Shown here piece after piece: positions 18,001 to 49,981 of a stretch of DNA of 64,000 nt. Positions within the stretch are counted from its first letter, which is position 1, and every line of letters begins with the position of its first letter. The notes below the pieces were generated by a model. It was not told the origin of the DNA. It saw only the letters and a program-made list of their open reading frames with translations, and searched no databases. This DNA comes from Lampris incognitus (lineage: Eukaryota; Chordata; Actinopteri; Lampriformes; Lampridae): contig NC_079219.1 of the NCBI RefSeq assembly GCF_029633865.1, forward strand, positions 15,156,310 to 15,220,309, written 5' to 3'. The position numbers were made by a program, and so were the translations under genes.

Positions 18001-21000
18001 CTAAACTATCAAAAGACAATGTCCCAATAAATTACTTACAATGATGGTTATTACCTCAATAATCATTAGTGCCTTATCTATTCACCAAAATATCTGAGCT
18101 AACAACTCAACAAATGATTAAATTTCTACAGTCAATATCCTAATTACTGAATACTATTGCTATTGTAATAATCCATCATTTATTATTTTGGCAGCGTGCT
18201 ACACCAGCATAGTTGATAATTGAATTGTCCACTAAATTGTCTGTCACAGTCTTGACTCACCAAACTGTCGTAGGGAGTAAACAACATCCTGCAGGTGGAC
18301 CCAGAACCTGAACTTTCTGAGAGAGATCCCCTCATAGGACACAGTCAGGGGGAGCTGAAAGGTGCTACTATTGATTTCCTATCAATATCGATAGGCAGAC
18401 ACATAGACAGATCATTAATTCACAATACCATAACTATTGGACAAGGTCAAATTCTTCACACGAACATAATGGGCATGTAAAGGATGCAGGCGTGTCCTAC
18501 CATGAGGTCTCTCACTCTGAAGCTGAGCTCATCAACCAGCAGCAGAGGAAGGTACGCCATCTTTCTGCCTTCCGGAGCGCTAAAGAGAGATAAAGATAGA
18601 TACCTTTATTTAAGCGGTTGACTGAGGTTGTCTAACAGTACCAAAAAACACACGGGTTCACAAAGAACATGTTCTTATTTATACCCAAGTGGTGTTGCCA
18701 TAGCAGGAAGAGTGCACAACTGGGACTGGATCCATTATCAGTTACAGCCAGTCTTTCCAGTGTTACTCATAGACCAGTTGTGGGTCAAGTGCCTTGCTCA
18801 GTGACTACCGAGCAGTAATTTCTAATGAAAACCCGGGTAAGTCTCTGTTATCACCGGGAGTACCTGAACCTTGCTTTGACAGCTGTAGCCTCGTGTGACT
18901 TACATTCTCATGTAGCGCCTCACATCGCTAGGAAGTCCTGCTCTGTTGAAGATGAAGTCCTCCGACATCATCGTGACTGACAGGCGTGGTCTCCAACGGG
19001 AGATACGAGCCTCTGGTCTCGCTGTGGATTCCTGAAAGAGATAAGTATTTTCAGTGGGGTCTGCCTTTAATGTGGCTGGTGGTTCATATCAAATGTCTTT
19101 GATTTACAAACTAGGCAGAGATGCTTTTTGATCAAAGATGTTGCCATTTTTAAATAATCCCACTGAGTTAAACAGGAAAGAATTTCAAAATCTGATGGTA
19201 CTCTGGGACCTACAAATGTAACACAGTGGATAAGTTAAGTTGCTGCACCCAATGTCTGCCACATACAACACTCGGTCTTCACTCCATATCCAATTAAAAA
19301 GATCTCCCACACCAACACCTCCCTCAGTTTTGCATCATCTCGGTCTGCTGCTGCCAGAGACCGGCATGCTCCTCAGAAAACACTAAAACTGGACAAACTT
19401 ATTCCGGTTCCACTTTTACAAACTCCATTACACACATTCTCACTTGACTGTTTCCCGCCTACTAATACTTCCTCAAACTCGCACATCTACTTATTTTTGC
19501 TATATGTTGCGAACCTTTGTTGTTTCCCCGTTTGCATGTTTCCTATCATGTCTGATAACCCCTACTTCACCCTATGTATGCCATCGCCTCACCTTTGTAT
19601 CTTGTCCTGCATGTGTCTTTGCTGGTAAACTGCTGCTCGCCTGCCTGTGCTTCCTGTGCCTGTGTTCTTATTTGTTCTTATTTAACCTTAACCCTCGCTG
19701 TGTTCTTGTTTATCTACTGACTTTTTGCTTTTAATTTTTTTTCAGCCCATCTTCCCTTTCCCTTCAGCTGGCTTTTGCCATTTACCAGGCCACCACTGTA
19801 AATAAGAATTTATTCTTAATGTATTCTACTACTACTTTCAGCTATTCTATTCTTAATGTACTCTTAATGTATTCTTAATGTATTGCCTGGTTAAATTAAA
19901 GGTTAGATGAAATAAAGTAAATATTAAGATAAGATGTACTTTATTAACCCCGTGGAGAAATTCATCCTCTGAACCCATCCCAACACACACACTGGAAACA
20001 GTGGGCAGTCATGTAGCTACTCCAGTTCTTCTTGCCAGAATACTTACATTTTAATAGGAGTATTACCCCTAACATGCATGTGTTTTTGATGGTGGGAGGA
20101 AAACGGAGCACTCAGAGGAAACCCACGCAGACACGGGGAGAACATGCAAACTCCACACAGAAAGGACCTGGGGTTCAGACCCAGGACCTTCTTGCTGTGA
20201 GGTAACTGCTAACCACTGGGCCACTGTGCTGCCCTAGTTGTAAGTTGTGATCCATTTCTTACAGTGGACATATGTCATCTTGCTAACTGGGATCAGCACA
20301 GTGTCAGCCAAAGAGTGGCGACAAGCTACAACCCAAGTAAACTTGAGGAGAACTTGCAAATTCTAGGCAGAAAAGTTGTAGTCCAGGACCCTCTTGGTGT
20401 AAGGAAAAACTTAAACATGGAAGCGTTAATGCCATCCTGGATAGCATACAGACTAACATGCCCCTCTGTGTAAGCTGAGTCACGTTCTTTGCAAGTGATG
20501 GATGAGAAGCACCAGAGTATATTGAGCTTTTGTGGTAATGTTGAGTCAGGCCAAGGATAAGCACCACACATAAATTAGTTACCAATGTCAGTCCCATTAT
20601 ACCTTTTGCTTGTCTTTTGGTCCCTCGGTGTGCCTTGGGTTGACATAGGTGGTGAGCTGAGCAGCATAGTGGACCTCTCTGTTATCATCCAGCGGTGAAA
20701 CACCGGCCTTGTGGACGTACACCACTGCATACAGACTGCCATTTGCACGAGTCTCCTCTGGGAGATCAACATTCACCTGCCTGAGGGGGACAATTCAACC
20801 TTTATGAATTGTTCATTTCATTCTATATTCACCCATTAACGCTGTCAGTTTTGTAAGTCTTTGCACTGGCATTTCTGTATGTGTCCAGCACATAATAATC
20901 TGAATGGAGCAACTATGCAGCGCTTGCCTTTCAAATGTGGCATGTTGGTCAAATGGGTCAATTTTGACAATGAGGTGGAGCTGGCTGTCATCTGGGACCA

Positions 21001-21433
21001 GACACGTGAACACACTCATCTGTAAGGCACAGCAACAGTATCAGCGGAGTTAAAAAGGACTTCTTAAAAGGCACAGAATAAAGGAGGCAAACGTGTAGTT
21101 TAGTATTTTCTGTCCCTACCAAAGTGTACACCAGTGCTATAGCAACATCAGAGTCCTTGGGGAGACAAGCTATGGATAAAACAAGCCACACACAATATAT
21201 TTGGAAGAAACAAAATGCATAGGCCTACGAACCTGAAGTCGGGGTCTTTCTGCGAGGTAGGAAGTGATGCACTGCTCCCCTCTCCCCTTGTCGCACGGTT
21301 TTGTATTCAGAAAGCCGTACAGCACCCATGCTGTATGCAGCATGTAGACCACGAAAATCCCCAGGAAGATCTTTGCGATGGAGGTTCTCTTACCTCCGCT
21401 AACCCCAGTTTTGGAGTAACACCAGGGGAACAT
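9035..21433 (-). CDS. clptm1l: CLPTM1L-family multi-pass membrane protein (17 exons, about 528 aa)
   Basis: Minus-strand exons: 21233-21433, 20928-21019, 20603-20780, 18904-19031, 18501-18579, 18261-18354, 16800-16894, 16098-16182, 14765-14865, 14185-14250, 12683-12733, 12504-12586, 11450-11484, 11133-11188, 10909-10953, 10320-10453 and 9035-9098. All phases agree. The start MFPWCYSK is followed by a hydrophobic segment (IAKIFLGIFVVYMLHTAWV), as in human CLPTM1L. Conserved blocks include FERQVNVDLP, LALKNDISFW, RKTVEYDTQ, YYSWLINSLV and LYLYQ. CLPTM1L is an ER/plasma-membrane protein of the CLPTM1 family, a lipid scramblase implicated in GPI-precursor handling (family knowledge). Oddities: intron 2 uses a GC donor; about 8 residues before LPLTVSYEG are missing relative to human; exons 15-17 are strongly diverged, and the last exon is weakly supported. 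It may be the divergent member of a duplicated fish pair. Confidence 0.82.
9695..10119 (-). mobile_element. tRNA-headed SINE, copy 3, with 15-bp target-site duplication
   Basis: A minus-strand copy flanked by identical 15-bp direct repeats (GGATAACCAATTCTT at 9680-9694 and 10120-10134). It has an oligo-T/C tail at the left and lacks about 30 bp of the tRNA head. The perfect duplication shows insertion by target-primed reverse transcription and suggests a fairly young event. It sits in the last intron of the CLPTM1L gene, in the same orientation as the gene. Confidence 0.85.
11915..12292 (+). mobile_element. tRNA-headed SINE, copy 4 (internally deleted)
   Basis: A plus-strand copy with a good head (GGTAGCGTGGCAGTC as A-box region, GGTTTGAATCC as B box) and an A-rich end near 12280. 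About 80 bp in the middle are missing relative to other copies. It lies in intron 12 of the CLPTM1L gene. Confidence 0.75.
15713..15841 (+). repeat. interspersed repeat ending in (GGAT)n
   Basis: One of four copies (others at 22103-22345, 27356-27478 minus and 33369-33497) that share GATAGGCTCCAGCAT and TAAGCGGTTTGGATAATGG and end in GGAT repeats. This looks like the 3' tail of an L2/CR1-type LINE or a SINE sharing that tail. It lies in intron 8 of the CLPTM1L gene. Confidence 0.65.
16975..17700 (+). repeat. tandemly duplicated retroelement tail ending in AAATAAAATTGACTTGAC
   Basis: Two diverged tandem units of roughly 210 bp (16975-17175 and 17200-17420) share GGTGATGTGAGTCT-like blocks and ATGGTGACGGTGGTC. 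A unique stretch follows, ending GGGCTATACAAATAAAATTG with a TTGAC repeat, the typical 3' end of a common fish LINE/SINE. It lies in intron 6 of the CLPTM1L gene. Confidence 0.55.
19922..20237 (-). mobile_element. tRNA-derived SINE (second family)
   Basis: On the minus strand it starts GGGCAGCACAGTGGCCCAGT, with an A-box-like GGCCCAGTGGTTAG and a B-box-like GGGTCTGAACCCC. It passes through TGGAGTTTGCATGTTCTCCC and ends GGTTAATAAAGTACATCTT. This is the common tRNA-headed SINE type of teleosts. A more diverged remnant of the same element is recognisable at about 20345-20402. It lies in intron 3 of the CLPTM1L gene. Confidence 0.75.
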
Positions 21434-23431
21434 TGCTCTGGCTGAAGAACAGCTTTTTGAATGGTTATGAGAACCAAAGATGTAAAATAAAACAAAGCTG
21501 CCAATGATGGGCTATTTGTCTAAAAGCACAGCAATGAAAATGTCAACACAAAGCCTTTCCCTTTCCTCAGCATACTTCCGGTCGCGGTTTTCCGAATCTG
21601 TTCTGCATCCAGGGAAGATGCTGGTGCGGCAGCAGACAGACATTCTTCTGGAAACCACATGATTAGACGAAGACGGCTGAAAAACGTTGCACGACAGCCT
21701 CATCACTATTTAACCTTAACCCTGAACATAACCCCTGCCAAAGCTCAACAGTAAACCATAGCTGCGGTTGCCTAAGCGAAATTCGACTTGTGTGTACGCA
21801 GCTGGGCTGATAATGTGAACCGTCAGTCTCGCAGACCTTGCCCGTCACGTGGTTTCCGAGAGAATGTATATGGAAACTGCAAGCGATGCCTGCGGTGCTG
21901 AACCAGTTGATAGCAGTCGATGCAGATGTGCCCCAAAACGTGCCGAAGACTTTCTGAATGACTCAGTCGGTATGAGTTCCAGCTCTTATGGTGATAAGTT
22001 TGTTTGTTTTTGTTTTGTTTACCTCTGACTAAAATTGCATAAAATTAAATTTTACATTGTTCTTCTCATTTCCGCTACTTAAATATTTACATATTAAGTT
22101 CCCGCTGCCTGAGTGCTGGGATAGGCTCCAGCATCCCCGCGACCCTGCCTGGGAGCAGGATGTATAGTCAGTCGCACAGCACGGGTTTTTGAAGTACAGT
22201 GGTGCTGTCACCAAGTAAACAAGTCTTTGATGGCATGGTGATGGAGCTCTGAGTGGCTGTTGCAGCTAGAAAAGCGCTGCAAAAAATATGCAACTTGAAC
22301 TTGAACTTGATAAGCGGTTTGGATAATGGATGGATCGATGGATATTAAGTTCCAGTCACGACGTGAGGCAAGGCAATGCCAGCATTACTTTCAGATCTCT
22401 TTTTGTAGATTCTATGATAAAGTGGACAGAATCAAGATTTTAAAAAAAGAAGAAGAAGCAAATGTCCATGCTATATATGTCTGTTAAATGTAAATCCCCC
22501 ATCCCGTGTCCTATCTGCCCTACTCATCACGCCCCCTGATGTCTCAAGGAAAAAACACCGGGGCAAATGGTTCCATAGGTTAGTCCCTAGACATAAAGCT
22601 GTTTAATACAATCTTATTCGTTCTTTCATTTAATTTTTAATTTATTGACGTTTAGTTAAGCTGTATTTTAAATCTTTTTTTTAATCTTCGGTCTTCATTT
22701 AAATAGCTGGTCATTGCTACCAAAACCCAAAAGGGTTGTCAAAAGAACTAATATATGAGCAGCACGTGCGCAACGTACAGCAAACATAACACTACCGCTG
22801 TGCATTATGGGTACGCACAGTGGTCTCGTTTGTCCTGTCACCGGTTATCTTTCTTGCTGTCATTTCGTCTGAAAACGTGGCTTTATGAATGAATTTCCGA
22901 TGTTCTGGAATCAGAGGCAAGTTAGGTTTTCCGTTTGCAACGCTGTGTCTTACACACGCTACCGACCGCCATGGTGAAACTGTGGTGAATATCTGCGCCA
23001 ACCAACAACCTCCGGACGCTACCAGCGTTTGGCTACTTAGCAAACACACGGTCTTGCTATAACTTTTAGCTGTTGCCAACATTGTGATGAAGATGACATA
23101 GTGTGACTTTGTGTTATGTCTTCCTACACGGTTTCAAGTTGACGTACCTAAATCGACATTGATTGCTACTTAGCGCTAGCTTGTCATGTTGTCTGTTATG
23201 ACTTTGTCGCTTTGTACTCTGGGGCAGGACCGCTTTGCGTAACGTTTAGTTTGATTTAACTGCCCAACAGCCCGAGTTATTCACTGTTGGCAGGAGGGAG
23301 GCTTTTCAGATTATATAATGTATCAGCAATAACGTCTAATAACGTCGTTGGCTTTCCCCAGGCGTTGTCCCCCACTCTTTGTTTTTCTCTAATCTCCTTG
23401 TTGATTATCAGTCCTCGGAGCGGCAGGGAGC
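21434..23431. promoter_or_regulatory. divergent intergenic region between CLPTM1L and MRS2
   Basis: The two genes are head to head about 2.0 kb apart, so both promoters should lie here. No TATA box is obvious at either start. A nested repeat occupies 22103-22345. The 600 bp before the MRS2 ATG are less repetitive and probably contain its leader. No other gene is seen. Confidence 0.5.
22103..22345 (+). repeat. (GGAT)n-tail repeat interrupted by a second insertion
   Basis: The outer repeat runs from GATAGGCTCCAGCATCC to TAAGCGGTTTGGATAATGG. At about 22160-22310 it is split by a segment ending CAACTTGAACTTGAACTTGA, which looks like another retroelement 3' tail with a hexanucleotide repeat. Without this segment the outer repeat is continuous. 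Confidence 0.55.
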
Positions 23432-26400
23432 ATGGTGGCCTGTGTGAGAACTTGGTGCTGTAGAAGTTTTCTTGGGATGTTGGCGGAGAGGAGGCTGAGC
23501 AAAGATGTGGTTGCCAGCTGCATGAACTGCAATGGAATATGTCTGCCATTTGGTGGAGGGTTTTACCCCAAGCAAAATTTAAGCGCTGCAGGGAAATACA
23601 TTTACAGCATGGGCAGGAATCATGCTGACAGGGTTGATACCCTGCTTAACTCTATGAGTTACACAGGACCACGCTGCAGTAGAAAGCAGGGGTGGCACAG
23701 TAAGAGTTACAGTACCAGTGGAATGATGAGCTGGTGCAGGCAAACATCGACTGTATTTAGATTTCAGCAAGAAGCTCCTCGTGCAATTGCGAAAAAAGAG
23801 ACACTGCTGCAAAGGAGCGCAAATCAAAATGGTAAGGATGTGGAGCTTTCTCATTAGTTATTAAGGTTATATGATGATCATTGTTGATTTGAGTAGCATT
23901 TTATTCATGTTTACCCTTTTTTTAATCATTTTATATGTTAATAGTTTTTAGATATGTTAAATATTTCATATCATGAATTTTTGACTATACAACAAAACAA
24001 CAATTTATTATCCTAATAACTCAAAATACTTCTGGAATACCATCATGTGACATTTTGAACAAGAATGTCTACATTTTTTATCTTAATTGAATTCCCCTAG
24101 GGTTTATAATCCCCTTAACTTTTAAGCTGATGACATTCTTTTGACACTGTGACTGCAGCCAGTTTTCAACCAAAGAGCTAAGAGTTTAAGCCAAAACAAT
24201 AAATTGCATACTGATAGCCCAGTGTATTCCGCTTAAACCCCATTTGTTGATCTGACTGAAAAAAGTTCTCGGTTAAGCATTTTTTCTGATAATAACATGT
24301 AAAAAACTGTTTTACTTTAGATTTCATGTATCCTCACTTCTTCTTTAAACAGTGTCCATTTGCCACAGAGTGACAGAGGCCTCCCTTTCCAGTGTAGCTC
24401 CTGTTTTTGTTGTGGTAAGACACCCTTGCCAGAAGCGTTTTTCTTAGAGTTGACTACTGACAGTCACTGTGTTGTAAGTCATATCCTACAGTCTGGCTTC
24501 AATTCTTAAAAGTCTCAGGCTCACCATCACTGTTGGACCACGGGAGGGGTCCGAATATACATTATTCTGTCTCATCCATAGTTTTAAAATGATCCGTGTG
24601 ACATGAATACACACTCCGGGGCTATATACCATTAACTATGCAAAACCTGATAATGGATAACTGGAAACTAGTGCCGTCTGTCACTTGGATGTGACTTTTT
24701 TCATAGTTGTAACTTTGCATAAATAAGTGACACATCAAGATGAGATTTTCTCCATTTGCCTCTAATACTGTATTGTTACAGATATTTAGGGAGTTGAGGT
24801 GCGAAATGATACAGTACTGCGTTTTTAGAAACATAGCAGTGCATCACACATAATTTACTTAGATCTACACATAATGTAGGGCCAAAGTAATAGGTTACCA
24901 TTGGTGTTTCATGTGTTTTCATCTGTTCTCATCTTACATAGCAAAACAGTGTAACTGACTGCATTTGGATGTAGGATGTTTTGCATGGATTACTGAACAT
25001 CTGACCTTCCAGTTCAAAGTATCATGCACTGTTATACAACAAAGGTAAAACGGTTTAGACTGATTGTTTCCACTAAAACCTTGTGTTTTTATTCCACTTG
25101 TTAGATGAGGTTTGACAAAGAGGGGAACGTGACATCATTTGGTAAGTGTTGAAATGTGAATCTGTTCCAGTGGGTTATCTGTAAAATATGTCTGTCTTTG
25201 ATAAGGTACAAGCCAGGCCAAGTCTGAACAAGATTATAAGTGGAAAAAAGCAATAATTCTCTCATTTCTCATAAAGACAATATCAAGAAGTGTTGTTGTT
25301 GAGACTCATGTCAGGTGACCTTGCTTGTCCTTCAGTTTTGATTTAGACTTTGCATGTATTTGTAAAACCCAACCTAAAATATATTTGGACATACACACAT
25401 CATCCACCATTTGTGATGTTGTGTTTAGTTCATCCACCTATGGTGTGACTGTCCCCTGATGCTTATTGTTGGCCCTGTCTTTGTGTGTGCAGTTTTTCTT
25501 GTTCTTCTGTCTGAATTTTGCCATTGCAGTTTTACGTAAGGTCCAAGTAAAAAAATAAATAAATACAAGGGCAAGGCTGATAGCTAATATTTTGAAAGGT
25601 TGTGAGCTGTTCTCTGCTTTGCTTGGTATTACTCCCATTCTGTGATGTGACCTCAAGCATATGTTTATAGAAAAGAGGTAATCCCCCCCCCCACACACAC
25701 ACACACGCACAGACACACAGTCCCTCAGTGTATCCTATAACACTGCTTTTATGGTTTGACTTCTTACAGAGAAGAAGAAAACAGAACTTTGCCAAGAACT
25801 AAGCCTGCAAGCCAGAGACCTGCGCTTCCAGCACAGCACTAGCCTTACTGCAAGAAACAACTGTATTATAATACGCATGGAGGTGTGTTCCCTCTCCCTC
25901 ACATACTTGCAGCCCAGTAGCACCCTCATTGCTTCAGCATGTGTATGATTTGCCAGGAATGGCTGGAATTTTCAATCTACACCTATAAGGTTTTCCAGCC
26001 TTTGACCATAACAGAGTGCCAGCGGGGAATTTTAAGAGATTCTGCGGCTTAATCGCTTTAAAAATGTCTACGCCAATACTTAGGTGGTTGTATGCCATCA
26101 TAGGATCACCTTTGGGGCTATTGTTATTGTCCATGCATTTGGTTCATCTGAGAGTGCACTGCTCTTGGGTTTTAAAAGCTGTCAGTCTTTGGTGGGTACT
26201 TGGAGCGAGTACCACAGATTTTCTCACACGTGCATGTCTGTACTGCCACAGAATCATAAAGATGGTGAAGACAAATGCAGGGAATTACAGACGTAAAGAT
26301 CTATTGCATTTGAAATAACTTAGCTTGTTGTAGTTAGTGATGATTGGCTGTTCCTTTAGCCTGTTGCTACAAAGACCAGTAAGTAGATAGACTGATGTGG

Positions 26401-29400
26401 CATTCGGTGTTGGTTGTAAATCTGAGTGCAGGCACAAGGTGATACATAAGGTATATATTCTATACAGATAGGTTTGTTGAGTCTGCTGGATTTGGTGAAA
26501 AGGGATTGGGTTCATTATTTCACATACTTTTTGGAAATATGACATTTTCATTTTTTTTAAAAATAAAACAAAACAAGGTAATACCAGATTAATTTAAATA
26601 TGGTAGAGGGAAAAGACCGTAGGGAACAGTTTTATTTGTGAATAGATTACATCATCTATGCTATACAAAATGGCATTTTCATGGGCGCAGTGCCACTTTA
26701 AACTTGGCATTATATGTCCCTCCTCCAGTCACATCACTTTCCAAGTCAACACTCTTTGGCTCTCACTACTGTGGCCTGCCCACTAGATGGCTGGGTAGCA
26801 TAGGTGTAGTAGAAAACACAAGCGTCATTGTCCATCATTTTGCAGTGATGGGTGAAAGTCTCTCCAGACTGAGGAAGATCTTCTCTGCTCTCTACCATTT
26901 TCAGAGAGAAATAACCACACTCTTCCTCACACCTAAAAATGAATGGGAGGAAATGGTTACTTACAGGGATTACTCATTAATATTTTTTACTCATTTTTTT
27001 AGAGCTGGAAATTATTGGAACTGGAACAAGGGGTTTGTTTGCACCCACTTTAAAAACAGTTCACCAGCATTTCTTTCATTCTACAAAGAAACCAGTTAAA
27101 TGTTTTATCTGCAATTTGATTTGTTAGCACTTAAAGTTGAACATCAACAAGATTTTTTATGGGATAGATGGATACCATGTCCCACAACAGTAACAGTTGC
27201 CTGTTGAGAAGACAGAGAGGTATAAAGTTTTTTTTTTTTTTTCATGGCTAAATAGTAAGAGGAGATGAGATTCAGGCAAGATTTAGGAGGGGGAGTATCT
27301 GTTGTGGTACACAATCACACCGCTGCGTCTTTCTCACAACTGTCATGTTCAATACATTATCCATTATCGAGACCGCTTATCCTGCTCTCAGAGTCACGGG
27401 GATGCTGAAGCCTATCCCAGCAGTCATTGGGCGGCAGGCGGGGAGACACCCTGGACAGGCCGCCAGACCATTACAGACAATACACTATCTTTGATTCAGA
27501 TGCACCAAACAGTATTTTTCAAGCTTGGCTATAACCTTCAATATATGCCATACATGACTTTTCAGCCATTTAGAGTTTCTTTAAAAACAGCTCTTATGCT
27601 AAGGTGTTTTTTCCAACTTTTTGATCTATAAGCCCTACACTTAATAGCCTAAGAAGATAAAAACGCACCAGAATCAAGTGTACAACATACCCCACCACTA
27701 TTTACATATGTAGTTTACATGGGCTTACTGTTGAGGAGGACTGGCATTGATTCACATTGAAGTAGTATCTGCATCTTGGTGGACGAAGCTGTCTTTTTAT
27801 GGCTTGTTTTACTTTGGTTAACTGTTTTCTAAAGATGTCGCACAGTCATTGTATTTGTTTTTCATTTTCTGCAGCAACAGAATATGCAGACCCTGATTTT
27901 ATTCAACACAAAATTGCCTTCGTCTAGACTGCATCAGTTACCATAATGTTTTCACCAGATAGTCATTGATGCCTCAAGCACCAAACTATGTTAGGAAGCT
28001 CTCCTTACCTGTCCTTCTTCCTTCCGGTCCCAAACGCCCGACACTCCACACACTCCTTGTGCTGCTGACATTGTCCCACACAAACAGGACAGAGCTCGCA
28101 GGTTGGCCCTGTATATGGGGGCTCACATCTACATCTCCCACACTGACACATCCCGTTTCCATTACACAGCTGCTGATTGGTCGCCATACAAGAAGCAGTT
28201 TCCATGGAACAGCTGCAACCCTCACCGGTCCAACCCTTATCACAAATACATTCCCCACACACACAACTTCCTCGGCCTCCACACAACCTGTCACAAAAAA
28301 TAAGCAGACTTTTAAGTGACATGTTATTGAGTTATTTCAGTAATTGATGTCATCAATCGATATAGTAAATGAGTTGTTTAACAAAAACTACCAATGCTGC
28401 AAAGAATATAAATGGGATTTCGTAAACTACAGCTAAATAAAAACATAGAACTAGAAAATAATCAGTTATGTTTGACTATGATTTGTAGTTGGCTGTAGTA
28501 TAGTGTTAAGTGATCCTTAGTCATTTCTAGCATACCTGTTGTTGTGGCGTATACAGAGGAAGTTGTCACACTCGCAGAACTGTCCGGAGTATCTCTCCTC
28601 TGGGTTTGCTCTTCTGTCACACTCGCAGTTCCCCTCCACACAGTTCCCCCTGCCGCTGCACACGGGGGCTGTGGGGCTTGAGCGACAGCGGTCTTCATTT
28701 GGTGAAACCGATAATTCAATCTTTTTCTGGCAACGGTGTCCGGAGTAGGGCACATTACAGTCACACTTCCCGCAAACCAAAGCCCCGCGGCTACTACACC
28801 TAGGGCTGTTCTCATCACGGTCCCTCATACAGTCACACTCACCTGAGTGAAAATTAATGGGGGGGATGTTAGCATTGGTTACATATCAAATTGAAGCCAA
28901 CGTACACCAATGGGTTCCAAACTTTGATTTTAATAATGAAGATGTTAAGTCATTGCCCTAATACTAAAACAACTAAAGATACTTTTTGTTTTTAATTAAC
29001 TGTCATTTTCAATTTGATTATCAAAATTGAATTCAAATTTACATGGCAACATGTTTTAAAACTGAACGGACGAATATCGAAGTCAAGACCGTGAAAAGTC
29101 AAAACCATGCAACCCCGCGTTAATAGAGTGGAGAAGTAGGCAGGTTGGCTGTTTCCTGGAGAAAAAAAATTCCTATTCAATCCACCCATTGGAAATTCTA
29201 CTTTTAATGATTACCGCAATAATACTCAACACAGAAACACAGGAGTCTCCCAGATGGCCATTGGTTATAAAGGTTTTAACTTTTTCTGAGAAATCCCATT
29301 TCTGATTCTGTTTGGAATGTCAGAAACTGCAGTATGGCTCTCTGAACAGGACAAAATGTAAGTGAGTGTTACCTAATCAGTCAAATCCACCACTCCTTGG

Positions 29401-32400
29401 CAGAATAAGTTGAAGGAAAGCAGTAGAATGGACATCGATGCACATCAGATCGGTGGCGGTAGTCAGGCATTTCTTTTTGTTGGTTTGATCAAAACGACTG
29501 CTGAATTATCTCTTCCGAAGAGTTTGGCTAGTGACAAAGCTTAACCAGCGCAGGTCATTTGGATGTTTCTTAGACACAATGCAGATTGGAACTTGTAGTT
29601 GACTTAGTATCTCCTAAAGTTTTGTACATGGTCTTGCACCTTTTGACTTTATTCGGGGAACCAGAATTTTTTCGATGCAGTTACTAATTGTTTATACTGA
29701 TGATTCAACCGGGAGAGTTTCACGACAATCCAAGCGTTAGAACTGCTTGAACAGCCAATCACATGACATTGTCTATAGGAAAATTAATGGGATTTTTCTG
29801 CGGGGAACCAAGGCCCCCTGATATAACTCTACCCTGTTCTCCACTGTATTAAATGCCTAATTCTGCATTCAAGACAACTTAAAACTCAGTTATTTCTGGA
29901 AACGTTGTATGTCACACATTCATGCTGCTTACTTGGGGACAATATATATGCTAAATACTTTCCTTATAATGTTATTACTTCTTTGAAATAGGATATATAT
30001 CCACTTACGCAGCTTTTTTGTACCACTTTTTCCTGCTGTGACATAGCCAGTACTCAAGTCAAATGTATCGTAGCTCTGAAATGATACCTGGGTTTCAGAC
30101 CTTTAATTCCAAGTACATAAACATTCAATTCATTTTGTCACAAGTTGGATATAAATTTTCTTTCTTTTTTTGGATTTCCCCCAATTTTTCTCCCCAATTG
30201 TCCTTGGCCAATTACCCTGCGCTTCTGAGCCGTCCCGGTCACTGCTCCACCACCTCTGCCGAGCAGGGGAGGGCTGCAGACTACCACATGTCTCCTCCGA
30301 TACATGTGGAGTCACCAGCCGCTTCTTTTCACCTGACAGTGAGGAGTTTCGCCAGGGGGACGTATTGCATGGGAGGATCATGCTATTCACCCCAGTTCCC
30401 CCTCCCCCCGAACAGGCGCCCCGACCGACCAGAGGAGGCGCCAGTGCAGTGACTAGGCCACATACCCACATCTGGCTTTCCACCCGCAGACACGGTTAAT
30501 TGTGTCTGTAGGGACACCCGGCCAAGCCGGAGTTAAAACAGGGATTCGAACCGGCGAGGCCCGTGTTGGTAGGCAACGGAATAGACCGCTACACTACCCG
30601 GACACCCTTGGATATCAATTTTTACCAGTTCCAAGTTGTTCTGCTCTTCAGTAAGCCTACTACTATTTCTATGACAGTCATAACAGCTTGGTAGTAAAGC
30701 TGTCACTTTCAATTTGAATTTTCCAACCAACGTGTTTCAAACACGAGCAAAGGAATGTTATACTTTCGATTGATTAAAAATATTGAATTCAAAATATTAA
30801 ATTCTTCTGTTAATTTTTGAAAAGCATGTTGGTATGACCTTCATAGAAACAGTGGTAGGCCTATTCGGGAGCAGTGCAGGAAACACCATGCTACACCTGT
30901 AGAACGCCTTGCTTTCGATCGCAACAGAAACAGTGTAGACAGTCATTAAAGTCTAATTTATGACACTTTCAGTTTGCTTATGCCCTGCTCAAGTGACCCT
31001 TCTGGTGAAGACATAGGGTAATGTGTGGTCACTTGGCCATTAGGCGTATAATTAATGTGTGGGCCCATGGTCTTGACTCTTAACTTAATGCAACACGAAT
31101 TTGTATAACTTGCTTAAAATTGTGGTGGTTTGGGCAGGCGTTTGCAATACAAGCTATAAAAAAAAAACAATACGAGCTTAGGGTGAAATCAACTGAGAAA
31201 AATTCTTAAAATTACATAAAACAGTAGTAGCACGACCAACTTGTTATTATTATTGATTACCCATTTGCTGTATTATTTAGCCTGGCTATTTAGTCATACT
31301 CACACTCCAGTGTTAGCTGTAGCACCAGACTCTGTGAGAAGCCTCTGGGTGTGAAGTTAACTGACCAGGGTCCATTCCCTCCGGCACACTGAGTAGCTTC
31401 CACGTTGACCTTGAACAATTACAGTTTACTATTATCATATCACTGATTTGTGTGCACAGAGCACATAAGGCTTTATTTGTTTTCTTAATGACCTGTTGCA
31501 TACTGTATGGGCCAGTGATGTGTGCTAACCTGTATGACCTGAGGGTCTCCTCTTGAGATGCTATTGAGTGTAATATTGACTCCTGCTGGTATGGGGCCGA
31601 TGTCTAGGTTCAGCTCTGTGAGGTCTTTGACTCGGGTGATGCTCAGGTGGAAGGACTGTGCCACACCTGGCCTCAGACTAATGTTAAGAGCCTGGGGCTG
31701 GAGGAAGAGGGTCTCGGCCTCAGCTGTCCCAGTCCTGCGGAGGTTGAATTGGACTTGGAATGAAAAATACCTTACAAGTCATTTGGACATGGACTGCAGT
31801 CTACAGGCTAATTGCTTTGTGCAGTCTTAACAGACCCTCTCTGGTTAAGGAAAATATACATCTTAAAAAAATGCTATTTGTTGGAATATTAGCTAAAGTT
31901 GTCTGGTTGGACTTTTTTTCTATAGCAGGATCAGATGCTGCCTACTTGCACTGCTGCCGACTCAAAATGTTCAAAGCATAGCAGTTAGCATTCCTATTCC
32001 TCATTCACAAAAAGACAATGTGTGCCGCGAGCTGCATTTGTCAAAGAAACTGAATGGAAAGTGATACATGCATTTATAGTGTGGTAGGCAGATGAAATAA
32101 AGTGCAGCTCAAGTAGTTCAGATATTCTAAATTATTTTTAAACACATTTTTTCCCAGACTATGGTATGTTTGCACTGATTGCATTCCTCATGGAAAACTT
32201 TGGGGAGGGGCAGCTTTCTGCAAGCCTTAAACATTACACTTTTCATCTTGTCATGTATACGTGTCATTTTAGATTTTCAACTAGCAACATGATTTGCATA
32301 TCAGGGTTTTAATCAGACCACCCACCTGCTGTCATTCTTGAAGGCTTGCACACTGCCCTGAGGGTCATAGATGTGCATTTGGCCGCAGCCTACCTTAAGC

Positions 32401-35400
32401 AGCTCTGTCGTACTATGGCAGCGAAACATAGCCTTAGGAAGGTCAGGGTCGACACACCAAGCACACGCTGGGCCTGCCTGGATGCACTCTCTGCAGGTGG
32501 AGGCATATTTTGGGCATGTTTGTTTATTGGCCCAGCCAAGGTAGACAAGCCCCACCAGCAAGCCAAGAGAGAGCAGCCTTGCAGCCATCCTGCAAGTATA
32601 ATTCTGTCATATATTGTCCGATTGTGGTTTGACATGTCCTTATAACATTATGCACAAAAGTTGCCTGCACTTGTCACCCTGAAAGTGGCCAATAAGTATT
32701 GTTGGCATTCTTAATTGAATCCAAAGAATTCTGCTTGTGTCGAGATAATGAACTAGCTTATGCCAAGCAGCTCCCATTTGCTGTAATGAGAAATTTTTTG
32801 GCATTATTTAGCTAATAAGTGTAAATACAGTTTTCACCATGTTATAGCTAGAAAAGGAAACTATTTGACAAATGAAAAATTGACACACCAAATTGCCCTT
32901 TTAATAAAATGATTATGGCTGTTCAGTTTATTGAGAGAACATTTTAAGTACCTGAATGATCTCATCTCCCCAATTACAAATTCAGACCAGTCTCTAATCT
33001 TCTATTCTTTTCTAAAGTACTAGAGAGAGTTGTTTATTAACAACTTTCGACCCCTATAGAAGAAAATTATCTATATGAACCATTTCAATCGGCTTTCAGG
33101 ACCTGTCACTCCACTGAAACTGCTCTGACCAGAGTGGTGAACGATCTTCCACTAGCTTATGGATTCCGATTCCACTTCTGTGCTTCTACTACTGGACCTA
33201 GGTGCAGCCTTTGACACCATTGATCACTCACTGTATACTATTAGACAGAAGAAATTGTAATGTTGGTGTCTCTTGCTTAGCTCTCTCTGGTCAATAGTTA
33301 TTAAGAGACCCTGGATAGAGGTGCGGTTTTTTACGTAGTGGTTTAACCACAGCTGTCTTAAAACTCAACCCTGTGATGGACTGGCGGTTTGTCCAGGGTG
33401 TCTCCCCACCTGCCGCTCAATGACCGCTGGGATAGGCTCCAGCATTTCCGCCACCCTGAGAGCAGGATAAGTGGTTCAGATAATGGATGGATGGATGATA
33501 ATGGTTTCTTAATATGTAATGCAGTATAATGATACAGTAATTGTGAATCCCACACTGAAACAGGCTAAACAATGAACAAATTAGAGGCGCAATGCAAATA
33601 CTAAAGGGCAGCACACACCACTGCTGAAACAGTCTCGAGTCAAGTGATCCTAGCAGCCTAGCAAATCTCACAACTTGCCTCTCTGATATTAAGTCCTGGA
33701 TGTCCCAAAATTTTCTTAAATTTAATTATGATAAGTCTGAGGTCATTCTGTTCGGGCCACCAAATTCTATCAGCGTTTTTGGTACTAATCTCAGTGGTCT
33801 GTCAAATAGTCTTAAGCAGGCTGCTAGGAATCTTGGGGTAATATTCGACGCTAACCTCTGTATTGATGAGTCAAACATGTTCTTAAGTCGTGTTTTCTCC
33901 AGCTCAAGATAATCTCCAAAATTAGGTCATTTTTATCAATTGCTGATGTGCAAAAAGTTGTACGTGCTTTTATCTATTCTCAGCTTGACTATGGCAACGC
34001 ACTTTACTTGGATATCAGCAAGGGCTCTCTCTACTGTCTGCAGTTGATACAAAACGCTGCTGCTCGGCTCATTACCGGGACAAAGAGACATGACCATATC
34101 GCCCCTGTGCTTGTCTCCCTTCACTTGCACTGGCTCCCTCTTAGATTTTCAAATGTTATTGCTCAGTTTGAAGGCCTTAAACGGTCTTGCTCCGACATAC
34201 ATTTCTGATTTATTGACCTGGTATACTCCCTCTCGACCATTAAGATCTGCAGATGGAGTCCTGCTGGTTATTCTCAGGTCTCGGTTTGTCACAAAGGGTG
34301 ATGTGGCTTTTGCTGTTAGAGTCGCTACACTATGGACCTCTCTTCCTGTTGAACTAAGACAAACCAAGTCTGTAGTCACAGAAAGGTGAATCAGTTCATC
34401 TGGACACAATATTTAGTGGGAGAAGTGTTTCATCACTCATCTAAGTGACTTCTTCAGTCTCAGCTGACTGCAGGTGCCCCCCACACTTATAAACAGCACG
34501 ACCAAAACCAACGATTGGTTTCAGTGCAAATAGGCGTGACCGTTAGTTACAATGGCCATGTGTCCTATTCACAGAGGATTGGGGATGAACTTGATGATGA
34601 ACTGATTCAACTTTCTGTGATTTCTTTACCTGGATTACTGAGCATACATAAAGCCTGTCAGAGCATTGACACCTGGGAATAAAACAGTGTTCTCAGAGTT
34701 TGCAGCTTTTCACAGAGATGCGCGTGGATTCAAGACTAGATTTTGCCATTTTTGGGGGTTTATATTGAAGTGAATAATAGCGTTCTCCCTGACTCCTGTT
34801 AGCTGGTGCCAAAGTGCACTGGCCTACATAGTGTGGTGCAATATTGGACTTGGGAAGATCAATCAAAGGGTAAAAATAATTTTGAAGACGATAATTTTGA
34901 AGATGGTAGTCTAACCAAAATGTGTCATGGATAATGTAAAAGGCACAGTTGATTAACAAATAAAAATGACCGGGTTTTTTTGATTATATCCATTGTCTTC
35001 ATCCAGTTGGATTGCCATAAATTCACCTTAAAATCATGACCTCAGTGATAGAAATGTCTTTTTTTGGGGTTTTTTTGGGGTTACAAAATACTTCAAAATC
35101 TATTGGTGCTATCAATCTTTTTAGATCAGTTAAGCACAAAGGTAGTAAAATTCAACATAAAAATACAGTAATTCTCAGCAGTAAATTTATTAGTCTCATG
35201 TAGCACTTCTCCAGACGTCATTTGTAAGGTGCTTTAGATTAAACATAACATCAGTGTCCAGTGACAACAATCTCTTTAAATAAAACAAAGGAGCTGAATA
35301 AAACAGCATGGGAATATGACAGTCCAACCAATACATTTTTTTATGATATTCCGTACATTTTCTGGGGAAGTGATTTAAGATGATTAAAATATTATGCCGA

Positions 35401-38400
35401 TTTTAGTGGATTGATCCTGATTGCAAATGCTCAGTGTCTTTCAAATTGAGTCTAGACTGGTGCACCCTGCCAGAGGATCTACATTTACGGTCCTTTCTAT
35501 AAGGTCTTTGTTTGGGGCGTTTGGCCTGCAGCTTAAGAGCACTGGTAACTGGTGTAAGGACGCTAAAATACAGTTTGATTTAAGTGAGTCACTATGTCAG
35601 TGTTTTTTTCTACAAAATACTAAAGTTTAAGGCTAGATATTGAGTCTTTGATAAATTAAGGGAATTCTAAGAGCATTGAGAGACTGTCATTTATATGTGC
35701 ACTTGGCCAAACTAAATGAGCAAACAAAACCTTGATACTTATACCCCATGTATTTTCTATCAAGGACAAAAGCGATAAAATACATAGTCAGGTCTAAACA
35801 GAAAATTAACAAAATAAATGTCAATAGAGTGACCTAAAGTGCCATTCTGTCTCACCGTGCTGTTGTTAAAGGTAAACCAGTAAGAAGAGAAAACAGAACA
35901 AGTGACTGCAGCATGAAACCGGTAACCTACCTGTTAAATAGGCGCTTACTGTCTTTAACTATGTCACTGGTGCTCCTGCGGGACAATTCTCACGTCAAGC
36001 TGATTCTGTGATTGTCACAAAAAAAAAACTAACACGAGTAAGCGCAAACTATCAAACTTCCACTACATTACCAAACAACCTGTGAAATACGCTGAACCCT
36101 TTCCTTTCTGTTGCTGCAGCGTCCTGCGGGGGTCGCCTTTGCACACTCTGTGGTGTTACTGACAGGCAGGCTAAACCAGAGACATACATTGGACTGTTGG
36201 CTGTGGATAAGGGAATTACAAAAGCATTCGCTCACAGAAAGTTGAACCAGTTCATCTGGACACAACATTTATTGAGAGATGCGTTTCATAACTCATCTAA
36301 GTGACCTCTTCAGTCTCAACTGAGTGAAGGTATCCCGCCCCCCTTATAAAACGTGTAGTGGCATAACGAAACCAACGACCAGTTTCCTATGCAAATTATT
36401 GTGATTAACTGGAGTCACAATTGTAACTCTAATTAATGCAATTTATGCAATCTAATTGTTACTCTGATTTATGCAAATCACAGTGACCATTAATTAGAGT
36501 TGCAATTGAAACTGTAACTCTAGTTAATGGTCATGGTAATTTGCATATGAAACGGATTGTTGTTTTCAGTTGTTAAGCCACTGTAGTGTTTGTAAGGGTG
36601 GGGATCCCTGCAGCCAGTTTAGACTGAAGAAGTCACTTAGGTGAGTGATGAAATGTTTCTCTCTCAATAACTGACTCAACTTCATGTGATTTCCTTACCT
36701 GGATTATGAGCATGCGTCAAAACATTTTGACTTGAAAGCATTCACTGTTTATTTCTTGAAACTGAATGTGTTGCCAAGTAAAGGGAAAAAAAATAATGTG
36801 TGTCTTTTCTTATCAAGAGCCAAATTTAAGCTTTTACTGGCTTATTAATGTTTATCTACCTGACAACACTGGCCACAAAACAAAGTTATAGGAGGTAAAA
36901 TAACTTGTTGTCAAATTAATGCAACTTTTTGTTTTTTTGATAGATGATGATGAATCTAGGAAATTCACACAGTTCAAAATGAATCTAGGAAATCTGCACA
37001 GCTCAAAATTCAAACTTAAAGTGGATTACCACAGTAAATATCCCAACGCACATTAAATGCAGAGGATAAATCAATACAGGTTAAATGCAGCCTCTGTTTT
37101 CGCTGAAACCAAATCAGAGCTCTCGGTTTCATGAAGCTTTTCACTGAATGGACCCGTCCCCTCAAATATTTACAGGTCAGAGTTGACTGTATGGCCTTTA
37201 GTCATCATCAATTGTGCATGCATGCATCCACACATGTGCATATACAGACACGAACACGACCAAAAGCTATGGGGAATAAAATGGAACAAAAACAAAAAAA
37301 TAAATGAGGGATGAAAAAAAGTTTTGGTTTTTTTTCAGTTGCATTTAATATGCAGTAATACATTATGTGGTTTTAGATTAATAGCCTGATAATGCAGATT
37401 GGAATAAATGTTCTTGGTGTCAGTATTATTGTGGAGTAAAGTCTGTATTGCTTTTGTGTGAATAGTCAGACTCGGTCATTATGCCCCAAAGGAATCACTG
37501 TTTCACCCTCCCAGAAAATGTAATGAGAATTTTCTCCCTCTCTCTCCTTTTTTACTGTTTTCTCCTCAGTCTCTGAAAGCTGTAGTAACCCCCCAGTGCC
37601 TTTTGGTGTTTGATTTCCGAGGCCTGGCTTTGGAGCGCTGGTTGGTACTAGAACTGGCCCCACAGATAGCATCACAGACACACTCTCTGCCCTTTGAGTT
37701 CAGAGCACTGGAGGCCATTCTGCAACACAGGGTAAGCAAGTTAAAGGAGAGGATTAGGAAGAGGCCTCTTGAACACTGAAGGTATTGCATCTGTGCTGAA
37801 ACACAGGGCAAATTGATTGTGTATCTGTATGTATATTAATTTAGGTGAACAGTCTCCAAACCCGGCTAAATGAAGTCCATCCAGTAATATTGGACACTTT
37901 GGAGTCTCTGGTGGATCCTAAAATCCTCTCTGCAGACAGAAGTAAACTACATATACTCCTGCAGAACAGCAAGAGGTAATCCACACACTTATAAGTAGGC
38001 AAAGACCACTGAGCTAAGAATGCACTTATCAACATTAGAAAAGGGGAGCCCCTGGGCTTGCACCGAGTCAAGAATTTAGTTTAAAATGGCTTTATTAGTT
38101 TAGGGCATATCAAAGTAAAAAATCACGAAATCACAAAAGGTGGCTCAGGAGAACGCCAACCGGTTTCTACCCATACTGGGTCTTCCTCAGGGCATGGCTG
38201 GAAAGAGGAGTCAACCAGAGTGGAAAGTTGTTATTCCTTATATAGACATAGTGACCAAGAGGCCAAATTGCACCAGCATATCACACAATGAATCTACAGA
38301 AAAGGCTATATGGAAAATAAATTAATAGTCAAAATAATAATTATAACCATAACAATAAACAACCTCAATAACACCAACAACAATAATAAAAGCACTAAGC

Positions 38401-41376
38401 CTGTTTACAAAAAGGTCTGAAATCTATTTCCTCATTGAGACCTGAATACACCAAAGCATTAACTTAAATATCCAATACATTTCTCTCTGTAGTAATTTAT
38501 TAAGATGATTGCCACCTCTGATAGAGATCCACAAACTCATTGCCCTCCACTCTCAAAAGGCTGTGGTTGCCGTTATGAGTTATAGAAATGGCGTGCCATA
38601 CGGTAATCAGCATCATTGGTTCTTATGGCATATTTGTGTTCTGCCGCTCTTATCTTTCAAACACCTCTTGGTGCACCCAGTGTAAAAACATTCACATGGG
38701 CAAGTGAGGCGGTACACATCTATGGAGTTACAATTAATAAAATGTTTATTTTGATATAGCGCCCTTGTCTTGAGATCTACAAATTCTCTATGTTGTATAA
38801 TGTTGGGGCAGTGATTACCTGTGGTTTGCATGCATTTGAAAGTCCCAATAAGTCTCTAGAGCAAGCAGCCTCCCCTCCTAGCTGGAAGCTAAGTGTAAGT
38901 CTGTCCTTTATGGAGGGGGCTCGTTTGTAGTAGAAAGGGGGAGGATATTGGACAATCTCCTTCAGGGTAGGGTCTCTCCTAAGGATGTCCCAATTAGAAA
39001 GAATGATCTGATGAGCCTGTTTGGTGAAGTGTGTGACAAATGTATATCTGAAGTGTCTTTTCTCTGTCTATCCGATTGTTGTAGGAGGTGATGTCGTCTG
39101 ATGGAAGCTGCCTTAGTCTGAGCTGTGGAGATAGTGGTCTTTTTGTATGATTTTGTCCAAGAAGCATTTAGTCATATGTTGAGACTGTGTATGAAAATCA
39201 GAGTCTAAGTCGCAGATCCTCCTCAACCTTTGAAATTGACGATATGGGATATTATTTTTGAGGTGGTGGGGATGAAAAGACCCATAGTGCAACAGCGAAT
39301 TCAGATCAGTAGGTTTTCTAAATAGTGTATGTCATTTATAGTCATCTCCTTTATAAATGGTCAGTTCTAGGAAGTGGATTCTCTCTTTGGAGGGTTCAAC
39401 AGATAATTTAATGTTCTTATTAGTGTTATTAGGATAATTACCGAAATCCACCAAATCATTGTGACTACTATTGTAAATAAGAAAAATATCAATAAATCTA
39501 CAATATATCTTTATATTGTCACAAAAGGGATTCATTGCAGGGCTAAAGACATATTCAGACTCCCAAAGTCCCAAATAGAGGAAGGATATTCAGGGGCAAA
39601 GCTAGCCCCCATGCTGGTCCCCTTACACTGTCTGAACAATCTGTCTTGAAACAGAAACACGTTGTTATTCAACTCCCACTCAGTAAGTTCCACATTAAGG
39701 CCAGTAGAGGGCATCAGTCCCTCTCTATCCGACAGATAAAGGCCGTCTGAGTGGTCGATATTGGTGTATAGTGCTTCTGCGTCCATTGTAACCTTAAAGT
39801 TCCAGATCAACTCGGCTCAGTTTATTAAAGAAAATCAGTAGTGTCCCGAACATATGAACACAAGGTTTTAAACAATAGTCTATAAACTGTGAAGCTGGTT
39901 CTGTGAGAGCCCTGTTGGCAGCCACAATGGGCCTGCACTGTTGTTTGTGAACTTCGGGTAACATATAGAATGTGGTGAGTCCAGGATGTTCAAATGATAG
40001 GAAGCCGTGTTCATTGGTGTTACTCCAGCCACAGTCTCTGGCTGTATTCAAAAGAGCTGCGAGTTCCTCCTTCATATGGGGAAGAGGGTTAGTTCTGAGT
40101 TTCGTGTAATATTGAGTGTTTTTTAGTTGTTGGTGAGATTCTTGGAATGTATTTATCATAATGCCAAACTACCACAGCCCGCCTTTATTGGCTTTTTCTA
40201 TGGTAATGCCTTTACATGTTAGATAGAGAGGGACTGATGCCCCCTTTAACGTGGAACTTACTGAGTGGGTGTTGAATAACAATGTGTTTCTGTTTCAGGA
40301 CAGATTGTTCAGACAATGTGAAGAGACCAGCATGGGGGCTAGCTTTGCCTCTATTTGAGACTTTGGGAGACTGACCTCAGCTCAGACTAAGGCAGCTTCC
40401 ATCGGACGTCATCACCTCCTACAACAATCAGACAGACAGAGAAAAGACACTTCACCAAACAGGCTCAGCAAATCAGGCAAATCATTCTGTATAATTGGGA
40501 CATCCTCGAGGACGACCCCTCCCTGAAAGATTTTCCAATATTCTCCCACCTTCTACAAACGAGCCCCTTCCATAAAGGACAGACTTACACACAGTTATCT
40601 TCCAGCTAGGAGGGGAGGCTGCTGGCTCAAGAGACCTATTGGGACTTTCAAATGCATGCAAACCACTTGTAGTCACTGCTCCAACATTATGCAACATAAG
40701 GAATTTGTAGATCTCAGGACAAGGGAGATATACATAAAAATAAGCATGTTATTAATTGTAACTCCATAGATGTGGCAGAGAAGTATGTAGGGGTGGTGTA
40801 GGATATGTATGAGGGAAGTGTGACAGTGGTGAGATGTGCAGTTGGAATGACAGATGGGTTCAAGGTGGAGGTGGGATTACATCAAGGGTCGGCTCTGAGC
40901 CCTTTCTTGTTTGCAATGGTGATGGACAGGTTAATGGACGAGATCAGGCAGGAGTCTCCATGGACTATGAAGTTCACGGATGACATTGTGATCTGTAGCG
41001 AGAGTAGGGTGCTGGTTGAGGAGAGCCTGGAGAGTTGGAGGTATGCACTGGAGAAGAGGAATGAAAGTCAGTAGGAGCAAGATGGAATACATATGCGTGA
41101 ATGAGAGGGACAAAGCAAGAGAGGCAAGATTGAGGTGGCTTGGACATGTGTGGAGGAGAGATGCTGGGTATATTGAGAGAAGGATGCTGAATATGGAGCT
41201 GCCAGGGAAGAGGAAAAGAGGAAGGCCAAAGAGGAGGTTTATGTGGTGAGAGAGGACATGCAGGTGGCTGGTGTGACAAAGGAAGATGCAGAGGACAGGA
41301 AGAGATGGAAACGGATGACCTGCTGTGGCGACCCCTAACGGGTGCAGCCAAAAGTAGTAGTAGTAGTAGTAGTAGT

Positions 41377-49443: not shown

Positions 49444-49533
<90 letters not shown>

Positions 49534-49981
49534 CATCTGTCTGTCTATAGTCATCGGAATGTGATGATGCGCCTGAATCTGCAGCTGACCATGGGGACCT
49601 TCTCTCTTTCTTTATTTGGCCTGATGGGTGTGGCCTTTGGAATGAACCTTGAGTCATCCTTTGAGGAGGTGTGTTGGCTTGTTTTGTCAATAGTCCAAAG
49701 GTTTTATTTTCTGTCACCGTTTGACAATTTCTGTGTGCGTGTGCGTGCATATATGTATACACACATAGCCATAACTATTCTTTTCTACTTGCTTTGATTT
49801 AATTTGACTCCCCTGCCGCTGTGTGCAGTGCGTCTTTACCTACTCGCGCATATTTTGCCAGGATCCGCGTGTGTTCTGGCTGGTGACAGGCTTCATGTTC
49901 CTGGGCAGCGGGCTGATCTGGAGACGGCTACTGTCGTTCCTAGGACGACATCTAGAGCCTTCAGTATGTCCACCAGTAGTG

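Follow-up and report, generated by a model that had tools for sequence, protein, structure and literature searches.

A six-exon integrin beta-1-like gene without beta-I head and membrane anchor, antisense in a putative MRS2-like gene of Lampris incognitus

Integrin beta subunits are defined by their beta-I head. The integrin-beta-like protein ITGBL1 lacks both this domain and a membrane anchor, and it consists of ten I-EGF repeats only, with neither PSI nor hybrid domain. ITGBL1, also named TIED, is secreted and is reported to lower integrin activity, and its authors could not find how its preferential action at the trailing edge arises (PMC8921176). Within the open-licence literature, judged by title or by the start of the abstract, we found no natural beta subunit devoid of beta-I. 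The closest published relatives found are truncated paralogues of beta-1 in zebrafish, named beta1tr-1 to -3 (Mould et al. 2006, PMC1538996), divergent derivatives of beta-1 without transmembrane and cytoplasmic parts, which, according to their authors, are possibly secreted if they are unable to pair with an alpha subunit. In these paralogues, the A (beta-I) domain is present, the part covered retains all its cysteines and has one extra in EGF-4, and the chain stops four residues past EGF-4, with no beta-tail domain following. Here, we describe a gene with the reverse organization, in which the beta-I domain is absent and the beta-tail domain is present. It lies on the minus strand of a 64,000-nt stretch of DNA (hereafter the window, to which all coordinates refer unless another contig is named), which is a part of contig C12 of the 1.48-Gb genome of Lampris incognitus.

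The gene comprises six coding exons (32588–26746; Table 1) with an uninterrupted spliced frame. It is intact and encodes a beta-1-like polypeptide of 448 aa without the beta-I domain and the membrane anchor. An earlier note on this DNA, made from the letters alone, had proposed five exons in consistent phase and a product of 387 aa. All five exist, with exact ends at 32588–28009, but the sixth coding exon (26932–26746) had been missed; it adds the beta-tail domain and the stop codon, and the proposed length has to be corrected. Likewise, the PSI, hybrid and I-EGF domains of the proposed architecture are present, and the beta-tail domain (PF07965) had been overlooked. All five introns have GT-AG borders, and exon 6 is preceded by a TTTTAG acceptor. 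The start ATG is flanked by A at −3 and G at +4 and preceded by an in-frame stop. The first 20 residues were judged by eye, with no predictor behind the assignment, to be a signal peptide; they are followed by the PSI domain, the hybrid domain, I-EGF1–4 and the beta-tail domain, after whose last cysteine the frame closes with TGA. PF17205, PF18372, PF23105 and PF07965 were found above the Pfam cut-offs, and the hybrid domain was identified by alignment. The product contains 48 cysteines, four N-glycosylation sequons and a single RGD tripeptide (residues 149–151), located in the sequence ISRGDPQ of a shortened hybrid loop where beta-1 has SIGDE. Exon-level comparison with the same genome listed 30 matches, six of which were the gene's own exons on C12 and the other 24 of which showed at most 55% identity; no second copy of the gene was among the matches listed.

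Compared with an integrin beta subunit, the PSI, hybrid, I-EGF1–4 and beta-tail domains are found, and the beta-I domain with its metal-ion-dependent adhesion site, the transmembrane segment and the cytoplasmic tail are missing. The absence of the whole beta-I domain, claimed in the earlier note, is borne out: there was no PF00362 match in the product or on C12 (41 matches genome-wide), and no remnant was detected at E ≤ 1 between 25000 and 36000 with a probe of the genome's own beta-1a beta-I exons, in which the last part of the domain was lacking. Similarly, none of the six genome-wide matches to the cytoplasmic tail (PF08725) fell on C12. The single match to a transmembrane segment at E ≤ 1 within 25–36 kb was a 17-residue transmembrane-like stretch (27217–27167, E 0.82), which was taken as chance. 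The product ends with VVRAKEC and the stop; beta-1b has VVETLEC and continues into a transmembrane segment encoded by the following exon. Also lost is a short disulfide loop in the C-terminal half of the hybrid domain; in beta-1a, this loop reads HCKNG...KCSN.

Other candidate explanations of this architecture were rejected. Exon skipping of a normal integrin gene was ruled out, as no beta-I exons were found nearby. The same probe found no beta-I remnants in or near the introns, such as intronisation of the domain would have left. An assembly error was ruled out as well, since the deletion preserves the frame and coincides with a domain border and there is no N in the window. The presence of PSI, hybrid and beta-tail domains together with four I-EGF units excludes an ITGBL1 orthologue and, with beta-I absent, upholds the initial view that the architecture differs both from ITGBL1 and from a normal beta subunit. 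As a separate observation, contig C24 carries at 16.499–16.511 Mb an integrin beta gene whose exons include beta-I and I-EGF but which had no PF08725 match.

The comparison with solved structures yielded 73 sequences at E ≤ 0.001, the best 60 of which were listed. Among the matches listed, the closest relatives by phmmer were integrin beta-1 (ITGB1) chains (E 4.4e-84), related over the PSI, hybrid, I-EGF and beta-tail domains, followed by beta-3 and beta-6 (5e-62 to 1e-58) and beta-2 (about 7e-46). At the level of sequence, the likeness to beta-1 is far beyond chance. Identity to each of the two beta-1 genes of the same genome was about 45% over 286–289 aligned residues, a few beta-1a columns in this alignment extending beyond an exon end, and beta-1a and beta-1b were 68% identical to each other. 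Unlike ITGB1, the protein has no beta-I domain, transmembrane segment, tail or I-EGF2 hinge disulfide, and the introns differ. Searches for relatives gave two pattern matches in viral contigs and 12 in bacterial and archaeal genomes, none of which was confirmed.

The earlier note had also claimed that the two halves of the hybrid domain are encoded back to back, and this holds. In three human beta-2 chains (5e6v, 2p26 and 5e6w), the hybrid domain is contiguous and beta-I is lacking; these chains read RRAKGYSRVFLD or RRAKLSSRVFLD, and the product aligns with them through the junction without a break (E 9e-6 to 1e-4). The natural excision point of beta-I falls at nearly the same residue as in these laboratory constructs. 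According to a review, 5E6V, 2P26 and 5E6W are crystal structures of PSI/hybrid/I-EGF fragments. Because such beta-2 fragments without beta-I crystallised, the headless protein should also be able to fold. In contrast to the constructs, it is encoded in a genome and extends to the beta-tail domain.

The cysteines of the product follow a clear pattern. The extracellular part of beta-1 contains 56 cysteines (Mould et al. 2006, PMC1538996); subtraction of four in beta-I, two in the hybrid loop and two in I-EGF2 gives 48, as counted. From the end of the hybrid domain to the beta-tail domain, 40 of 42 beta-1a cysteines are kept, versus 95 of 246 other residues (p 8e-13). Both lost cysteines belong to I-EGF2, are replaced by K231 and E261, and align with C473 and C503 of beta-3. 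As described in a 2026 cryo-EM paper, C473–C503 is the first disulfide of I-EGF2, and the bent-to-extended movements rotate around it. Together, the two lost cysteines normally form a single bond, the I-EGF2 hinge disulfide on which integrin extension turns. Their joint loss in a protein that would no longer need to bend and extend may provide a natural test of the hinge idea.

A three-taxon codon model gave a ratio of nonsynonymous to synonymous rates (omega) of about 0.34 on the branch of this gene versus 0.055 on the beta-1 branches, the estimates being rough because synonymous sites are saturated. Equal omegas were rejected (likelihood ratio test statistic, LRT, 11.0), and so was omega = 1 on this branch (LRT 7.1). 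After removal of the cysteine columns, omega was 0.37, with LRTs of 7.6 and 5.0, respectively. Outside the cysteines, constraint has clearly weakened. Neutral simulation at t = 1.56, the value fitted under neutrality, produced a mean of 10.1 stops per 294 codons, no stop-free run out of 300 and 31% of cysteines kept; at t = 0.5, the corresponding values were 4.8 stops, one stop-free run out of 300 and 67%. Neither the frame lesions nor the neutral evolution of a pseudogene was found. Simple decay is unlikely, as the earlier note had argued from the open exons, given the intact frame, the GT-AG introns and the rejection of omega = 1.

The intron positions bear on the origin of the gene. Borders of the beta-1b introns, placed by eye, lie before the PSI exon, at CTDE|N in PSI, LRSG|EP in hybrid, GDE|V, ACK|C, CGG|HG and HK|EC, and before the last ectodomain cysteine, and none of the eight coincides with an intron of the integrin-like gene. 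The acceptor at the CGG|G site was found in all eight paralogues examined (11 loci had beta-I matches; the donor side of the intron was displayed for five of the eight) and is absent from this gene, whose coding sequence is also unbroken across the seven other beta-1b positions. The parental introns are lost, as in a retrogene, but the body is not intronless; because the gene carries five introns, later intron gain must be assumed for a retrocopy. A poly-A tract and a target-site duplication, further marks of a retrogene, would be expected to have eroded by this degree of divergence. Intron gain has been reported in ray-finned fishes, and the proto-splice form CAG|G has been reported for introns gained in these fishes, including Euteleosteomorpha. 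This form occurs at four of the five junctions of the integrin-like gene; ordinary introns share it.

In the best tree, the gene is sister to beta-1a (approximately unbiased (AU) test, 0.909; bootstrap of the pairing 62–63), and placement beside beta-1b (AU 0.03) or mammalian beta-1 (0.007) was rejected. The trees were built without the paralogues C24, C14b and C5, of which only fragments aligned, and with C22a and C13 as part sequences. A three-way count of partners gave 10 sites pairing the gene with beta-1a, one with beta-1b and five with human beta-1. A retrocopy that regained introns may be the simplest account of the origin.

As for the source of the introns, introns 1, 2 and 4 had no match beyond themselves in the window or in the 239,944 bases of loci searched, and intron 1 matched only itself genome-wide. 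A repeat of about 118 nt in intron 5 matched 14 times in the same 239,944 bases. It should be mentioned that intron 3 carries at 30157–30607 a repeat with a tRNA-like head (judged by eye), which recurs several times in the window and at many loci with 78–88% identity, among the matches listed. The first 13 nt of intron 3 and the first 13 nt of exon 4 are near-duplicates of each other, possibly as a target-site duplication; half of this stretch is donor consensus, and it was not used as evidence.

Based on the above results, we suggest, with a probability of about 0.5, that the gene is a beta-1-derived retrocopy with gained introns which encodes a secreted, non-pairing modulator of beta-1-type adhesion. 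A beta-1 complementary DNA, most likely that of beta-1a, would have been copied into the MRS2 intron; the copy would have lost the beta-I segment and then acquired five introns. The product would be secreted as a cysteine-rich stalk. This stalk, lacking the head that contacts the alpha subunit and binds the ligand, would form no normal heterodimer, and it could modulate beta-1-type adhesion extracellularly in the manner of ITGBL1. The A domain is critical for heterodimerisation and carries ligand binding (Mould et al. 2006, PMC1538996); because it is missing, the protein should be secreted alone, without an alpha subunit. Secretion is further suggested by the stop that directly follows the beta-tail domain, and a secreted modulator is favoured because ITGBL1 is the nearest working analogue. 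Only tentatively, and at less than even odds, do we extend this proposal to a retrocopied stalk that dropped head and anchor at domain borders, had its knee hinge re-engineered by the joint loss of C473 and C503 and was kept by selection as an extracellular regulator. If true, a natural headless and anchorless relative of beta-1 under selection would show that the stalk alone (PSI, hybrid, I-EGF and beta-tail) can function, and this would bear on the way in which integrins are affected by ITGBL1 and by stalk-directed ligands. Should the intron history prove right, the locus would also be an example from vertebrates of a single gene that gained five introns.

Several alternatives for the present state and role of the gene were considered. 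A decaying or recently dead relic with no visible lesion yet would agree with the fast branch (1.5 substitutions per site versus 0.125 for beta-1a), with an omega above the beta-1 value and with the loss of head and anchor. However, 448 codons without stop or frameshift, GT-AG borders at all splice sites, a polyadenylation signal, the kept cysteines (40 of 42, the lost pair being disulfide partners) and the rejection of omega = 1 make such a relic unlikely. We consider it still less probable that the product is an integrin ligand or a matrix protein whose hybrid-loop RGD is recognised by other integrins: the motif is single, stands where beta-1 has another sequence and belongs to a protein predicted to be secreted, but a tripeptide is weak evidence, and in the alignment RGD is also present in the human beta-2 hybrid domain. 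Pairing with an alpha subunit, which the earlier note had entertained, finds no support, as the A domain critical for heterodimerisation (PMC1538996) is missing. The same absence, together with that of both hinge cysteines, the pivot of bending and extension, speaks against a dominant-negative decoy that would use the leg (I-EGF and beta-tail domains) to pair with alpha subunits. The beta leg is retained through the beta-tail domain, and it has been speculated that zebrafish beta1-3 and truncated beta-1 act as antagonists (PMC1538996), yet such a decoy seems improbable to us.

With regard to the origin, the gene may instead belong to an old beta-1-like lineage that has an intron pattern of its own and did not pass through retrocopying. 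A position as sister to all beta-1 was tolerated, and residues are held in common with beta-3 and with the paralogue C25b; on the other hand, the CGG|G intron in all eight examined paralogues of the same genome, the coding sequence without a break at seven further beta-1b intron positions and the best tree, which places the gene beside beta-1a, make this lineage rather doubtful. The proposal of a retrocopied, secreted modulator has several points against it, which we gather here. The AU test failed to reject placements with both fish beta-1 (0.10), all beta-1 (0.054), C25b (0.12) and the beta-3 group (0.21). Residues shared exclusively with beta-3 (14) and C25b (13) outnumber those shared with beta-1a (6), and 15 sites pair the gene with beta-3 against beta-1a and beta-1b, the other groupings having two and one. 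Two of the five introns are only 11–12 nt from old positions, so that sliding is possible, and intron gain in vertebrates has been called extremely rare. Relative to beta-1, constraint is weaker by a factor of about six, as measured with saturated synonymous sites and only three taxa. Finally, the function is what we infer from the architecture, the putative modulator role being argued by analogy.

The gene is surrounded by consecutive MRS2-like stretches on the plus strand (at about 25.8 and 37.6 kb), and because they flank it, it appears to lie within a single intron of an MRS2-like gene, in antisense orientation. Two consecutive profile matches, both under the curated cut-off, weakly suggest this host. 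The nested antisense position claimed in the earlier note agrees with these weak matches; the number 4 that it gave to the intron was not established. An open frame at 49.2–49.8 kb contains what we take to be the GMN motif of the MRS2 family. It should be noted that, against an MRS2 host, the frames 23405–23857 and 49240–49794, taken for MRS2 by eye, had no MRS2 profile match, and that a genome-wide PF22099 search was empty even at the flanking exons, its controls being likewise empty.

Table 1. Positions in the window of the parts of the integrin-beta-like gene and of the flanking MRS2-like exons.
Feature	Positions	Strand	Remarks
Open frame with the MRS2-like exon upstream of the host intron	25760–25945	+	Profile 17–59, E 5.3e-4, under curated cut-off
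AATAAA polyadenylation signal	26631–26636	−	About 110 nt 3′ of the stop
Coding exon 6	26746–26932	−	Beta-tail domain, PF07965 E 5e-16; last Cys 26751–26749; TGA 26748–26746
Intron 5	26933–28008	−	1076 nt, GT-AG, phase 2
Coding exon 5	28009–28287	−	I-EGF3 and I-EGF4
Intron 4	28288–28535	−	248 nt, GT-AG, phase 2; 11 nt upstream of the intron site kept by the eight examined paralogues
Coding exon 4	28536–28842	−	I-EGF1 and I-EGF2; hinge-disulfide Cys replaced by K231 (28726–28724) and E261 (28636–28634)
Intron 3	28843–31303	−	2461 nt, GT-AG; contains a high-copy interspersed repeat of about 450 nt
Coding exon 3	31304–31409	−	Final hybrid strands, to LEC
Intron 2	31410–31529	−	120 nt, GT-AG, phase 0
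Coding exon 2	31530–31734	−	Hybrid N- and C-terminal halves joined where beta-I is normally inserted; RGD at 31553–31545
Intron 1	31735–32325	−	591 nt, GT-AG; sole genome match found is itself
Coding exon 1	32326–32588	−	ATG, signal peptide (by eye), PSI with seven Cys, start of hybrid; PF17205 E 1.2e-10
Open frame with the MRS2-like exon downstream of the host intron	37462–37776	+	Profile 60–126, E 5e-6, under curated cut-off

Several neighbouring features were also observed in the window. Immediately 5′ of the integrin-like gene and oriented against it, open frames at 33041–34386 (plus strand) resemble what we take to be the C-terminal part of a reverse transcriptase of a long interspersed nuclear element, and an open frame at 40802–41071 (plus strand), further along the MRS2-like gene, is presumably also reverse-transcriptase-like. 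Open frames at 20575–21519 (minus strand), for which Pfam gave no meaningful match, resemble what we take to be exons of CLPTM1L. A tandem array with 2.4 copies of a 263-nt unit is located at 45243–45867.

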